Program-made: the position numbers and the translations under genes
In this document: positions 1 to 4,128 of the stretch, piece after piece
How positions within the stretch are numbered: the stretch's first letter is position 1
Layout: each line of letters starts with the position of its first letter
Notes under the pieces: model-generated
What the model saw: the letters and a program-made list of their open reading frames with translations, nothing else
Told to the model about the DNA's origin: nothing
The model's database searches: none
IMG/VR virus record: IMGVR_UViG_3300006875_000168
Coordinates: 1 to 23,849 of that record
Direction: 5' to 3' (one strand)
Source: a virus
Length of the DNA: 23,849 nucleotides

Positions 1-639
1 AGTTTTATCCCCAGCCAGGCTTAGCTGTTGGCGGACGTAGCGTTCCCATTGCTCGTCTGCCGCCAATTCGCCAACGTCCGATTGCTCCATGTCCGTTTTT
101 TGGGCTGCCGGTCCCGGAGCGGCGTTTAGCCGCGCAGGGGATCCGGCAGGAGGTTGGAGCTTTCTTTCTTTTGAAGAGGGGCGGGTCGGCCCTGTGGGGG
201 GCCGCCCCTCTTCTTTCTTTTTCTTTATATTAGGGTGGCAACCATTGCCATCAGCAGGGTGGCAACCATTGCCATGCGCATGGCAACCATTGCCACGCGG
301 TTGGCAACCATTGCCATCAGCAATTTCGCTCGAAATTGAGAGCAAACTGTAGCGATTTCGGATGGAGATTCCGCGGTTGGTGCAACCGCTTGAAATTCTC
401 AAAAGTCCGATTTTCACCAAAACTGCCAACGCCGTCTGCACCGTCCGCTTACTCAACCCGCAGGCGTTGGCGATCTCCTCTAGGGATGCTGGAAATGCCC
501 CTTTGCTGCCCCGTGGTGCCCTCGACTCGAGGTCAGCAAGTGCCAACAGCACCAACGCCACAGAGGGCCCTTGGCGGACTGCCATTTCCAGCGCCCGCCG
601 GTTAATCCATAGCCAAGGGCCGTCGGTTGTCGCCCTCAT
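1..639 (-). CDS. Winged-helix replication-initiator-like protein (lambda O type), 3' end off window
   Basis: The minus frame is open from the ATG at 639-637 to base 1 (213 codons, no stop), so the C-terminus lies outside the window. Residues about 50-85 form a clear helix-turn-helix/winged helix (SLEEIANACGLSKRTVQTAL, then LVKIGLLRISSG). A low-complexity linker (about 108-180) carries four GNGC(H/Q) peptides, a Lys/Glu-rich patch and Pro/Ala-rich sequence. A further charged segment begins at about 184. The start overlaps the stop of the primase-helicase gene as ATGA, implying coupled translation. The linker DNA holds four palindromic iterons. Known: lambda O has an N-terminal winged helix, and its iterons lie inside its own gene. 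Inferred: this is the origin-binding initiator. It could instead be a transcription factor. The domain call is firm; the role is an inference. Confidence 0.82.
   Translation of the reverse strand, partial: MRATTDGPWLWINRRALEMAVRQGPSVALVLLALADLESRAPRGSKGAFPASLEEIANACGLSKRTVQTALAVLVKIGLLRISSGCTNRGISIRNRYSLLSISSEIADGNGCQPRGNGCHAHGNGCHPADGNGCHPNIKKKKEEGRPPTGPTRPSSKERKLQPPAGSPARLNAAPGPAAQKTDMEQSDVGELAADEQWERYVRQQLSLAGDKT
173..213. repeat. 12-bp perfect inverted repeat (GC-rich hairpin)
   Basis: The arms GAAGAGGGGCGG (173-184) and CCGCCCCTCTTC (202-213) are perfectly complementary around a 17-base G-rich loop. On the plus strand the hairpin is followed by a pyrimidine-rich tract, so it could stop plus-strand transcripts. 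It lies within the linker of the winged-helix gene, next to the iterons, so it might also be part of the origin. Confidence 0.5.
213..316. other. Putative replication origin: four iterons plus A/T-rich tract
   Basis: Four identical 15-bp copies of TGGCAACCATTGCCA lie at 236-250, 260-274, 281-295 and 302-316, with start-to-start steps of 24, 21 and 21 bp (about two helical turns). Each is a perfect 6-bp inverted repeat (TGGCAA/TTGCCA) around a 3-bp centre, so it is suited to a dimeric DNA-binding protein. On the coding-strand 3' side of the iterons lies an A/T-rich, strand-asymmetric purine tract (about 213-233). Four in-phase palindromic iterons beside such a tract, inside the gene of a winged-helix protein, match the design of the lambda origin. 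Origin function is inferred. Confidence 0.7.
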
Positions 640-2522
640 CGCCGTCTCCCCAATTTTAGGCTGGGGTCCTCATCCTCGTCCATTACAGGCTCGGAAACTT
701 GAAACCATAGCGTGCCCATCCGCACCGGATCCGGCGAGTGTTGGATAAAGATGGACGGAGTTGGTAGCCCGTAGTCCTCGCCCTCCAGGCTCAACATCCC
801 GGCCTTTTTTCGTCGCTTGGTGGCTGTAAGGCGAAAAGTTGGCGGGTCCTTTGGTTTTTCCTTTACCCGATTAAGCGACAGCACCTCCCTCGCCCAATTA
901 GTCAGGATCGATGATCCAAGGCCCTGATAAGCAAGGTCGGTTTCTGTCAGGACGTTATTCTGGCTTGCGCTTTTGGGCTTTCCGAAATGGTGCACCAAAG
1001 CGGTTATCACGCCGGTCTCCTGCTGTATTTGGTTGAGTTTATGAGTAAACGCAGAGCAGATTTCTTGATCGTTTATGTCCGCGCCTATGTAACTAAGCAA
1101 AGGGTCGATAATGCAAATGTCCGGTTTATAGTCGTTTGCTAGTTCACGGTACATTCTGACAAATGCATCTCCGGTCGCCTCGGTATTGCGGAGGATTATG
1201 AGGTTCTCTTCCAGTTGCTGGCGTTTGTCCTCACTCATCACGCCCCCCATCTTTTTAAAGACCCCCTGCCAGATTTCCGCCATGTCTCCGAGATCATTCT
1301 CCGCCTGAACAAGCACGATTTTCAGCGGTCGGGCAGGTTGAATACCGAAGCTCAAGATCGAGCAGAGTTTGGGGTCCCCCAACGCCCATGCGCCCGCCAG
1401 CTGCAGGTTAAGGCATGATTTCCCAACGCCACTTTGGCCGAGGAGTAGCAAAGAGCCGCCGCGGCATAGCCAGCGATTCCCGAGCACACTCTCTGGATCA
1501 GCCTTGGCGTCGAAACTCAACAACTGCTCGTGTCTAAGCCTCTGCCCGTATTTGCGAGCTTGTTCCTCCGCCTCCCAATCCTCCCAGCTTAGAGCCCCGA
1601 TCAAAACGTCGATCAGCCGTTGGCGTTTGTCGCCACGCTGGCAGCCCGCCATCCTCGAGAGCCTGGAGGGATTGAGGCAAGCGCGGTCAACTTCCATTCC
1701 ATCAAACCGCTCAATGGCGTCGGCGGCGGCTTTCGCTCTGGCTTTGTATTGCTCCAAGTCCTTGGCCTCTACGCGCACAAATGCGTGAAGACTTTTGCCT
1801 CCGCTATGCACCACGCAAGACACCGGGAGCCCCGAAGCCAGAATGGCGGCCCACTGGGTCTCAATACTCGCCGAATCCGACTCAATCAGGCAATGGCGGT
1901 AGGCGGTCACATCGCCATCCGCCGAGCCTCCCGCGGTCAGCGGATTGACGCGCACCCAAGTGCCGATCGGATTGTCCGGCAACGCTGGGTATTCCTCCCC
2001 CAACTGGGGGAGTTGGTACGTTCGTCCCTTGCTTCGGATGGAGCCGTCGGACTCCGCAGTGACGACGCCGAAATGCTCGCCTCCGAAAAACAGCGCCTCC
2101 AACATCTGTTCACGTTCGTTAACCCAAGTCAGCTCAGGCAATGCTGTCGGGAGCACCGCGGGCTTCGGTGGTGGAGCCTCCACGGTTTGCAGTGTCTGCC
2201 GGAACGGCTTGTCTGGACGCATCCCGAGCGCCATCCTCGCCTCGGCGCTCCGGAGAGTGTGATTGGCTGCGTCGACCTGATGGCGGCAGGAGTTGTGCAA
2301 GCAGTGGATTGTCGGCGGTCGATCATCGACATTGACTCGGCAATCCCGCTTCCCGTTTTTCGTGGTGTGGCTTGCCTCCCCAGGGCAACGGATGAATGCG
2401 CAGGCCTCGGCATCGTCGAGTTTGCTCCAACTCAAGACTGAAAACTGCGTGGAGATGAGTTGTCGCTTTTGGTCAGCAGTCAGCGGTTGGCGCTCAGGCA
2501 GTTGTTTGTTTAGAATGGCCAT
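636..2522 (-). CDS. Primase-helicase (zinc finger + AEP-like primase + RecA-like ATPase)
   Basis: 628 aa. Residues about 41-80 form a Cys/His cluster (RCPGEASHTTKNGKRDC, then HCLHNSC) like a primase zinc finger. Residues about 205-300 carry AEP-type primase motifs: LIESD (212-216), SGGKSLHAFV (240-249) and DRACLNPSRLSR (279-290). A RecA/RepA-like ATPase follows, with Walker A GQSGVGKS (362-369, Lys368), Walker B ICIID (Asp473) and an HH pair at 511-512. It presumably unwinds DNA and makes primers at the phage origin. It starts 15 nt after the U-tract of a terminator and ends in an ATGA overlap with the winged-helix gene. Fusion of primase and helicase in one chain is known from phages and satellites. 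The architecture is well supported; polymerase activity is untested. Confidence 0.88.
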   Translation of the reverse strand: MAILNKQLPERQPLTADQKRQLISTQFSVLSWSKLDDAEACAFIRCPGEASHTTKNGKRDCRVNVDDRPPTIHCLHNSCRHQVDAANHTLRSAEARMALGMRPDKPFRQTLQTVEAPPPKPAVLPTALPELTWVNEREQMLEALFFGGEHFGVVTAESDGSIRSKGRTYQLPQLGEEYPALPDNPIGTWVRVNPLTAGGSADGDVTAYRHCLIESDSASIETQWAAILASGLPVSCVVHSGGKSLHAFVRVEAKDLEQYKARAKAAADAIERFDGMEVDRACLNPSRLSRMAGCQRGDKRQRLIDVLIGALSWEDWEAEEQARKYGQRLRHEQLLSFDAKADPESVLGNRWLCRGGSLLLLGQSGVGKSCLNLQLAGAWALGDPKLCSILSFGIQPARPLKIVLVQAENDLGDMAEIWQGVFKKMGGVMSEDKRQQLEENLIILRNTEATGDAFVRMYRELANDYKPDICIIDPLLSYIGADINDQEICSAFTHKLNQIQQETGVITALVHHFGKPKSASQNNVLTETDLAYQGLGSSILTNWAREVLSLNRVKEKPKDPPTFRLTATKRRKKAGMLSLEGEDYGLPTPSIFIQHSPDPVRMGTLWFQVSEPVMDEDEDPSLKLGRRR

Positions 2523-2593: not shown

Positions 2594-3121
2594 CTAGAAC
2601 GGAACTTGATCATCGCTCGCATCGCTGCCTTTTGTGCCAGCCTCAAGAGGAGCTAAAAGGCCCTTAAACGAGGACACGCCAACTAGGTTTTTTTCCAACC
2701 CCTCCATTACTGGAGCGATTGCGGAAATGTTCGCATAGGTTTTGCCATTGGCCGCAATAGTGTGCGTCACGGTTAACTGCGCCCCTTTGCCAAACAAAGA
2801 AGTTGTGTCGAACCCAGTTTTAGGCGCTTCTCCAAGCCAAGTCGTGACAAATTTGACTAACGCTGATTTTTCATGCCCAGAGATTTTCATGGGCTTTGAA
2901 CGCACAATCCTCAAACCACCTTCTTTCGCTCGAAACCCAAAATAGAAAGTTGTTAAATCGACAACTTCGGTTTCTTCGGATTCAAACTTCCTTCGTTCAA
3001 CGCCATAGCGTTCCTCGACTTCAATGCATGTAGCTAGGAATGTCCCTTTCGGGGCCATCTCCTCAACTAATATTCTGCGGCCTCCGCCGCCCGTTCCGGT
3101 TTCTTGTGTCAGTATTGCCAT
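2594..3121 (-). CDS. SSB-like (OB-fold type) phage DNA-binding protein
   Basis: 175 aa. The C-terminus is acidic and ends SDASDDQVPF, closely resembling the DDDIPF-type tip by which bacterial SSB recruits partner proteins. The body has a pattern known to me from small phage replication proteins: a central YFGFRA segment, a charged SGHEKSALVKFVTTWLG stretch (about 84-100), and a core with LFGKGAQLTVTH then GKTYANISAIAP. It probably coats single-stranded DNA during replication or recombination. It precedes the primase-helicase and is followed by a strong terminator. The stop is TAG; read-through would bury the functional tail, so TAG is a genuine stop here. The family assignment is from pattern memory, not a search; a gp2.5-like relationship is possible. 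Confidence 0.72.
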   Translation of the reverse strand: MAILTQETGTGGGGRRILVEEMAPKGTFLATCIEVEERYGVERRKFESEETEVVDLTTFYFGFRAKEGGLRIVRSKPMKISGHEKSALVKFVTTWLGEAPKTGFDTTSLFGKGAQLTVTHTIAANGKTYANISAIAPVMEGLEKNLVGVSSFKGLLAPLEAGTKGSDASDDQVPF

Positions 3122-3130
3122 GATTTTATT

Positions 3131-3159
3131 CTTTCTTTTTCTTTCTTTTTCTTTCTTTC
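3131..3159. repeat. Polypyrimidine/polypurine 10-bp tandem repeat in SSB leader
   Basis: Almost three copies of a 10-bp unit (CTTTCTTTTT on plus, purine-only on the coding strand) lie directly upstream of the SSB start. The mRNA leader is therefore a G/A-rich, unstructured tract that could act as an extended ribosome or S1 landing site. A similar tract occurs at 211-226. Confidence 0.6.
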
Positions 3160-3882: not shown

Positions 3883-4128
3883 TCAGCTCCCGCTCCTGCT
3901 TCTGCTCCAGCCCCCGCTCCAGCTCTTGCTCCAGCTCAAGCTCCAGCTCCTGATTTTGTTCACGCTACAGCTTCTGCTCCAGCCCCCGATCCAGCTCCAG
4001 CTCCTGCTCCAGCTCCTGATTTTGTTCACGCTACAGCTTCTGTTCCAGCCCCCGCTCCAGCTATTGCTCCAACTCCTGCTCCCGCTCAAGCTCTTGCTCG
4101 TGCTGTAATAAGTAGCCGAGCCTTTCAT
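3883..4128 (-). CDS. Ser/Trp-rich repeat ORF (81 aa), possibly a decayed coiled-coil gene
   Basis: The ORF starts at an ATG (4128-4126) that overlaps the stop of the preceding gene as ATGA, which favours translation. The product is almost entirely Ser, Trp, Gly and Arg repeats (units such as RSWSRSWSW and [12 protein letters not shown]), unlike any family I know. The same DNA in another minus frame encodes a Glu/Leu/Gln repeat typical of a coiled coil, interrupted by three in-frame TAG codons (4063, 4033, 3967 downward). Either this frame is a real odd small protein, or the locus is a damaged or hypervariable coiled-coil gene. Coding status is uncertain. Confidence 0.35.
3899..4102. repeat. 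Tandem repeat, 66-72 bp unit built from GCTCCA/GCTCCT hexamers
   Basis: The landmark CTTCTGCTCCAGCCCCCG (or one-base variants) recurs at 3899, 3971 and 4037, giving periods of 72 and 66 bp, both multiples of three. Each long unit is itself made of 6-bp GCTCCW-type repeats. The last two units share a segment beginning CCTGATTTTGTTCACGCTAC. Because the unit length is a multiple of three, copy changes keep all reading frames. Repeat slippage is the likely origin. Confidence 0.85.

Follow-up and report, generated by a model that had tools for sequence, protein, structure and literature searches.

A candidate lambda-like replication origin inside the O-like initiator gene of an uncultured phage encoding a primase-helicase fusion

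Results

Gene layout and features of the locus

The window analyzed here is the whole length of a viral record of 23,849 bp. At its left end lie an initiator gene, a primase-helicase gene and a possible gene for a single-strand DNA-binding protein (ssb), with the following features.

1..639, minus strand: O-like replication initiator gene (213 of its 228 codons lie in the window; the 3' end is at L005:121-168)
636..2522, minus strand: PrimPol primase-AAA_25 (RecA-fold) helicase fusion gene, 628 aa, recognized by profile and structure matches
2594..3121, minus strand: possible ssb gene upstream of the primase-helicase gene, from a weak profile match
334..609, minus strand: codons of the winged-helix domain (residues about 11-102, recognition helix SKRTVQTAL), from AlphaFold and Foldseek
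55..333, minus strand: codons of the disordered linker (residues 103-195) that carry the iterons, pLDDT below 50 throughout
302..316, strand not given: iteron 1 in gene order, TGGCAA-N3-TTGCCA
281..295, strand not given: iteron 2, TGGCAA-N3-TTGCCA
260..274, strand not given: iteron 3, TGGCAA-N3-TTGCCA
236..250, strand not given: iteron 4, TGGCAA-N3-TTGCCA, adjoining the A/T tract
208..237, strand not given: probable DNA unwinding element, A/T-rich, a purine tract on the coding strand (TAATATAAAGAAAAAGAAAGAAGA), from a stability scan

The initiator gene leaves the window at its left end. A second contig, L005, overlaps the window by 120 identical bases and supplied the missing last 15 codons, giving a complete product of 228 aa. 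The primase-helicase gene lies 5' of the initiator gene, and the two overlap by four bases, ATGA, at the initiator start codon. This order (2522 to 636, then 639 to 1) agrees with the initial annotation, which had placed the primase-helicase first and the initiator second. The product of the possible ssb gene matched the PHROG 378 SSB profile weakly (E 0.069), and an acidic tail, ...DDQVPF, could be read from its sequence; related phages keep this gene ahead of their PrimPol or DnaB modules.

Beyond the initiator gene, L005 carries small genes and a terminase. It extends the left end of the window (position 1) into terminase and portal-like genes, and the right end of the window (23849) begins with an S49 protease gene, which suggests that the two contigs together make up an almost closed genome of ~28 kb. 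Low-complexity tandem repeats of the CAGCTCCTGCTC type at 3883-4128 encode a SWSRSWS-rich ORF of doubtful reality.

The initiator is an O-like protein with an N-terminal winged helix

The initiator product matched Pfam PF13730 (HTH_36) at 1e-8, above the cutoff, and the PHROG profiles 391 (replication initiation O-like, 1.5e-11), 1032 (2.1e-11) and 678 (6.1e-10), which places it among the O-like phage initiators of the PHROG 391 class with an HTH_36 domain. The AlphaFold model of residues about 11-102, mostly at pLDDT 63-89, has the order helix-helix-strand-helix-helix-strand-strand, and with the PF13730 and PHROG 391 matches it confirms the N-terminal winged helix claimed initially. After the linker, the C-terminal part was modeled as a low-confidence helix. 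Foldseek searches with the winged helix gave only weak matches (best E 2.3e-3), the top one being a MarR-type regulator; the plasmid initiators 4pt7, 4pql and 5kbj and the DnaD N-terminal domain 2v79 were also among them.

Lambda O is recognized by PF04492 (5.7e-36) and TIGR01610 (5.4e-39), whereas the window initiator matched neither (Pfam to E 1, NCBIfam to 0.01), nor did it match the RepA_N family PF06970 (Pfam to E 1). As it stands outside both the lambda O and the RepA_N families, we classify the protein as an O-like HTH_36 initiator that would work like lambda O. Used as a protein query against annotated phages, it gave no matches. Among viral contigs, the match L006 was spurious, being LexA-like, and the other was the initiator's own continuation. 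Seven divergent winged helices were also aligned, but the alignment varied too much to serve as a scan profile.

Four identical iterons lie in the linker codons

Directly after the DNA-binding domain, the gene contains four tandem identical copies of TGGCAACCATTGCCA, with start-to-start distances of 24, 21 and 21 bp. They had been described as four perfect 15-bp palindromes at 21-24-bp steps; the number, identity and steps are right, but "perfect palindrome" is slightly wrong, since each iteron, TGGCAA-CCA-TTGCCA, has perfect 6-bp arms around an asymmetric 3-nt center. The exact pattern TGGCAAN3TTGCCA occurs only at these four sites in the whole 23,849-bp record, in which the reversed-pattern control gave zero sites. 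When up to two mismatches were allowed, 7 sites were found against 1.86 expected, a number that no shuffle attained.

The iterons encode residues about 108-135, which belong to the predicted disordered linker (pLDDT about 30), as the initial annotation had it. All four share one reading frame in the window (DGNGCQP/RGNGCHA/HGNGCHP/DGNGCHP). The flanking residues vary (D, R, H and D before; Q, H, H and H after) while the 15 bases stay identical, and the four sites are therefore not forced by the peptide; the spacers between the copies have likewise diverged. When the protein was held fixed and codons were drawn from the contig's own usage, four sites appeared in 0 of 200,000 draws, the maximum being 3 sites, in 3 draws. 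The four iterons therefore cannot be put down to chance or to constraint on the protein.

An A/T-rich purine tract adjoins the iterons

As expected of an embedded lambda-like origin, a probable A/T-rich unwinding region lies on the 3' side of the iterons. No 30-mer in the gene is less stable than the segment 208-237, which has a rank fraction of 0.001 (top 0.1%) in the contig, in accord with the purine tract that had been noted after the iterons. Lambda O has a similar A-rich purine tract, ATTACAAAAGAAAAAAGAAAAGATTAT, at the same relative place. Counting against this assignment, the possible ssb leader at 3123-3152 is even less stable and is the least stable 30-mer of the contig. Of the relatives described below, only some have a clear gene-wide A/T peak 3' of the iterons. 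The 16-mer TTCTTTCTTTTTCTTT occurs at 211, in the proposed unwinding element, and also at 3129 and 3139, as overlapping copies in the ssb leader.

Intragenic iterons are common in related initiators

A DNA-only bait, consisting of two TGGCAA-N3-TTGCCA sites 2-30 bases apart, was searched against 2.9 million viral contigs and retrieved nine stretches, of which three (L007, L012 and L014) turned out to encode O-like HTH_36 initiators, with the iteron array directly after the winged helix, the same place as in the window gene. Their proteins are ~30% identical overall to the window protein, and their recognition helix reads SKRSVQ as against SKRTVQ. Their iterons, spread over two reading frames, translate into WQNLP and MAKNA-type residues; the half-sites thus occupy other frames and specify other residues, which indicates that the DNA is what is kept. 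The matches L008-L010 and L015, together with the genome-contig pattern matches L016-L022, were not O-like initiators.

Two samples were then compared. The first comprised lambda and 17 other annotated phages whose winged helices are related, scored for at least three tandem 12-mers: tandem iterons were found inside 15 of the 18 initiators, three falling below the threshold of the array detector, versus 0 of 51 neighboring genes (Fisher p 1.4e-12). The independent second sample, 80 metagenomic loci reduced to 51 non-duplicate initiators and 172 control ORFs, had arrays with spacings of 21-24 bp in 41 of the initiators versus 5 of the controls, and 38 of the 41 arrays cover more than one reading frame; no array was detected in the other 10 initiators. 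The comparison of relatives that the initial annotation had proposed finds intragenic iterons in most initiators of both samples. On the sequences compared, intragenic iterons appear to be common, either not universal or overlooked by the detector when degenerate.

Iteron words vary from phage to phage. The similarity of recognition helices tracks that of iterons beyond what would follow from the remainder of the domain (partial rank correlation 0.32, 0 of 2000 permutations), in a test that corrects only partially for shared ancestry. L007, L012 and L014, moreover, were retrieved through the iteron itself.

Several further arrangements were observed. Initiators of marine and other metagenomic loci (L204-L283) mostly have exactly three iterons at nt about 265-355, spaced 22 and then 23 bp, so that the three copies cannot share one reading frame; this spacing is kept although the iteron words vary. 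In many O-like genes (L037:2055-2240, L031, L027, L024, L028, L036 and L039) the iterons are immediately followed on their 3' side by a second element, made of GAACCAGTNA-type words with a ~12-bp period and read as EPVxEPV in the protein. The window gene and lambda lack this element and carry the A-rich purine tract at that place. Outside such genes, the streptococcal records L011 (4363-4827), L013 and L016 carry copies of TGGCAA-ATA-TTGCCA at 30-bp steps, in an array that starts ~25 bp past the end of a 121-aa winged-helix gene. Two Obscuribacterales genomes (L017:1971-2135 and L020:7621-7785) share a TGGCAAGCATTGCCA array, which in L017 is located where a hydrolase-like gene ends, ahead of a convergent gene for a sigma factor.

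Other explanations of the repeats

The repeats could be operators through which the winged-helix protein regulates its own or a neighboring gene's transcription, with the origin elsewhere. The winged-helix fold seen here is widespread among regulators, as the MarR-type top match illustrates, tandem inverted repeats suit an operator, and plasmid iterons often also autoregulate. The sites, however, lie ~320 bp inside the gene, in linker codons and not at a promoter, and the PHROG profiles fit initiators, not repressors. Moreover, the layout is kept across many O-like initiators, and in lambda it is the origin (PMC7466680). We consider an operator role instead of an origin unlikely. Selection on a GNGC(H/Q) peptide, for instance for metal binding, with the DNA repeat as a by-product, would fit the single frame of all four copies here and their Cys and His residues, but it was rejected by the codon and frame tests: identical codons in all copies were never obtained with the protein fixed, the half-sites of L007, L012 and L014 and nearly all arrays in other relatives (38/41) use other or several frames, and the linker is predicted to be disordered. 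Such an origin of the repeats is very improbable.

Less credible still is a young, functionless tandem duplication of the minisatellite type. Copies 1 and 4 have the common flanking letters TCAGCA, and duplication probably helped to create the copies, yet all four 15-bp cores are identical and symmetric between diverged spacers, control genes mostly lack arrays (0/51 and 5/172) and the iteron sequence tracks the recognition helix. We give equally little credence to binding by a host protein or to sigma-54-like promoter elements (TGGC...TTGC). The words TGGCA and TTGC do resemble the -24/-12 elements of sigma-54 promoters, but the promoter explanation was rejected on spacing, the GG-GC distance being two bases below that of strict sigma-54 elements, and the sites are symmetric and tandem. 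As for a host protein, O-like genes of unrelated hosts have different iterons that fit their own recognition helix.

The neighboring gene encodes a PrimPol-AAA_25 fusion

The 628-aa primase-helicase matched PHROG 2597 (DNA primase) at 2.4e-54 and AAA_25 at 2.7e-21 over residues 337-516, and residues 197-296 matched the domain of 6zp9, a solved PrimPol of the archaeo-eukaryotic primase (AEP) type (E 0.0026). With PrimPol and a RecA-fold helicase in one chain, it belongs with the AEP primase-helicase fusions of PHROG 2597, and the helicase gene is indeed a primase fusion, as had been proposed. The locus does not have the lambda O-P arrangement with loader P next to O; the neighbor is the fusion, and no gene for a P-like helicase loader was recognized by eye in the window or L005.

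As a single query against viral contigs, the primase-helicase found no contig; its helicase half was closest to L112 (8.5e-41). No PrimPol or AAA_25 neighbor was present at ~100 O-like loci, nor any credible O-like neighbor at 83 PrimPol loci (the best 80 and three annotated phages), within flanks of 2-5 kb in both surveys, beyond which partners would be missed.

Related phages were also compared for their partners, having been picked by terminase or by the PrimPol half. In L061/L128, L124, L078/L127, L125 and L126 the same PrimPol half is joined to helicases of other types (L078 matched DUF5906, and L061 gave weak AAA models only), and neither an O-like initiator nor a clear iteron array was found near these fusions. 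L098/L072 and L058 have a DnaB-type helicase preceded by an unrelated initiator-like gene with its own tandem repeats; the AlphaFold model of the L098 protein has a low-confidence, possibly winged-helix N-terminus. These initiator-like genes gave no convincing Pfam match, and their repeats (L098:4903-5080 and L058:5513-5568) comprise CCAAT-N-ATTGG sites and AGACATCTCCT at 11-bp steps. In L061, GTATAGTAGTATAGAGGTATAGTAGTAGTAGTATATATATATATATATT at 3899-3960, right after the PrimPol-helicase gene that lacks an initiator, has TAG triplets beside an AT run and resembles a DnaA-trio-like unwinding element.

Discussion

The segment 208-316 is very probably the replication origin of this phage, lying inside its own initiator gene as in lambda gene O. 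From sequence comparison, a lambda-like origin embedded in a winged-helix initiator gene appears well supported. The initial annotation had suggested such an origin and thought the module new. The embedded origin gains support from the relatives (15/18, 41/51) and from covariation, but the novelty was only partly right. Helicase before initiator is already the order in Caulobacter phage Sansa, and the Salmonella phages S107 and SI5 already combine an O-like gene with a following TOPRIM primase/helicase; the pairing with a PrimPol-AAA_25 fusion alone seems unusual. A second origin elsewhere is possible, the contig being a fragment.

We infer that two winged-helix domains would dimerize on each TGGCAA-N3-TTGCCA iteron, with a subunit at either half-site. 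The 21-24-bp steps, near two helical turns, would set four dimers on one face of the DNA, where they might form an O-some-like complex, and strain on the adjoining A/T tract may melt it. The initiator's flexible linker and C-terminal segment, or the bare single strand alone, could then recruit the primase-helicase encoded upstream. Selection would keep the DNA sites and not the linker residues, as the codon test and the arrays over several frames in relatives suggest. It is possible, if somewhat short of probable, that by joining an O-type initiator to a PrimPol-AAA_25 fusion one operon would provide iteron recognition, melting, helicase and primase, and that it would do without a dedicated loader and without the DnaB and DnaG of the host. 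The type of helicase may dictate the need for an embedded origin, given that O-like initiators and iterons were not seen with sister PrimPol fusions (e.g., the DUF5906-type fusion of L078).

The origin of an uncultured phage would thus become predictable to within 110 bp. Over about 70 initiators, embedded tandem iterons appear to be the rule in the HTH_36 class and not a peculiarity of lambda, and since each gene holds a recognition helix together with the target of that helix, the class is a ready-made data set on winged-helix DNA specificity. With its reshuffled modules, this phage group lends itself to testing why embedded-origin initiators accompany some helicases and not others.

Comparison with known systems

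The AEP primase-RepA-type helicase phages FP_Lugh, Javan311 and Hayley also join a PrimPol to a RecA-fold helicase, and the PrimPol parts of FP_Lugh and Hayley are 37-38% identical to that of the window fusion; these three differ in having no O-like initiator annotated within 3 kb and in a distantly related helicase half. RepA_N initiators (pSK41, pTZ2162 and PLE) place a winged-helix N-terminus on semi-palindromic iterons (PMC7145576), and 4pt7 and 2v79 are weak structural matches, but PF06970 is unmatched here and those replicons are plasmids or satellites, not a phage module of this kind.

The embedded-origin layout itself is already known. In SPP1, oriL lies inside gene 38, with direct repeats and an A/T unwinding element (PMC6316719); the initiator protein is a different one, however, and SPP1 has the loader gp39, the DnaB-type gp40 and a second origin, oriR. 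Closer are the O-like HTH_36 initiators of PHROGs 391, 678, 270 and 1032 (SfV, Rhodobacter RcKvothe, Aggregatibacter S1249, Salmonella S107 and marine L207-L283), which share the fold family and the gene position of the tandem iterons, mostly at 21-24-bp steps. Their iterons vary by phage, and the partners seen were lambda-P-like loaders, DnaB or a TOPRIM primase/helicase, never PrimPol-AAA_25.

An origin inside the initiator gene is established for lambda and the Stx phages (PMC7466680). In the lambda record, four iterons are annotated at the corresponding place of gene O, and our detector found them too, which bears out the likeness in number and position drawn at the outset. Common to lambda O, its Stx counterparts and the window gene are a winged-helix initiator, intragenic iterons just after the DNA-binding domain (four; six in Stx phages), an imperfect inverted repeat as the iteron, 20-24-bp steps and an A/T purine tract on the 3' side. 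The window iteron differs from the lambda sequence, as had been stated, and the protein is an HTH_36 member, not Phage_rep_O (PF04492/TIGR01610), with a short C-terminal part that lacks the lambda O C-terminal domain. Lambda depends on P and the host's DnaB, whereas the window phage, in which no P-like gene was seen, encodes its own primase-helicase next to the initiator, in place of P and with the helicase gene first. The pairing of an O-like initiator with a PrimPol-AAA_25 fusion, and the fusion's upstream position, would be the sole unusual element of the locus.
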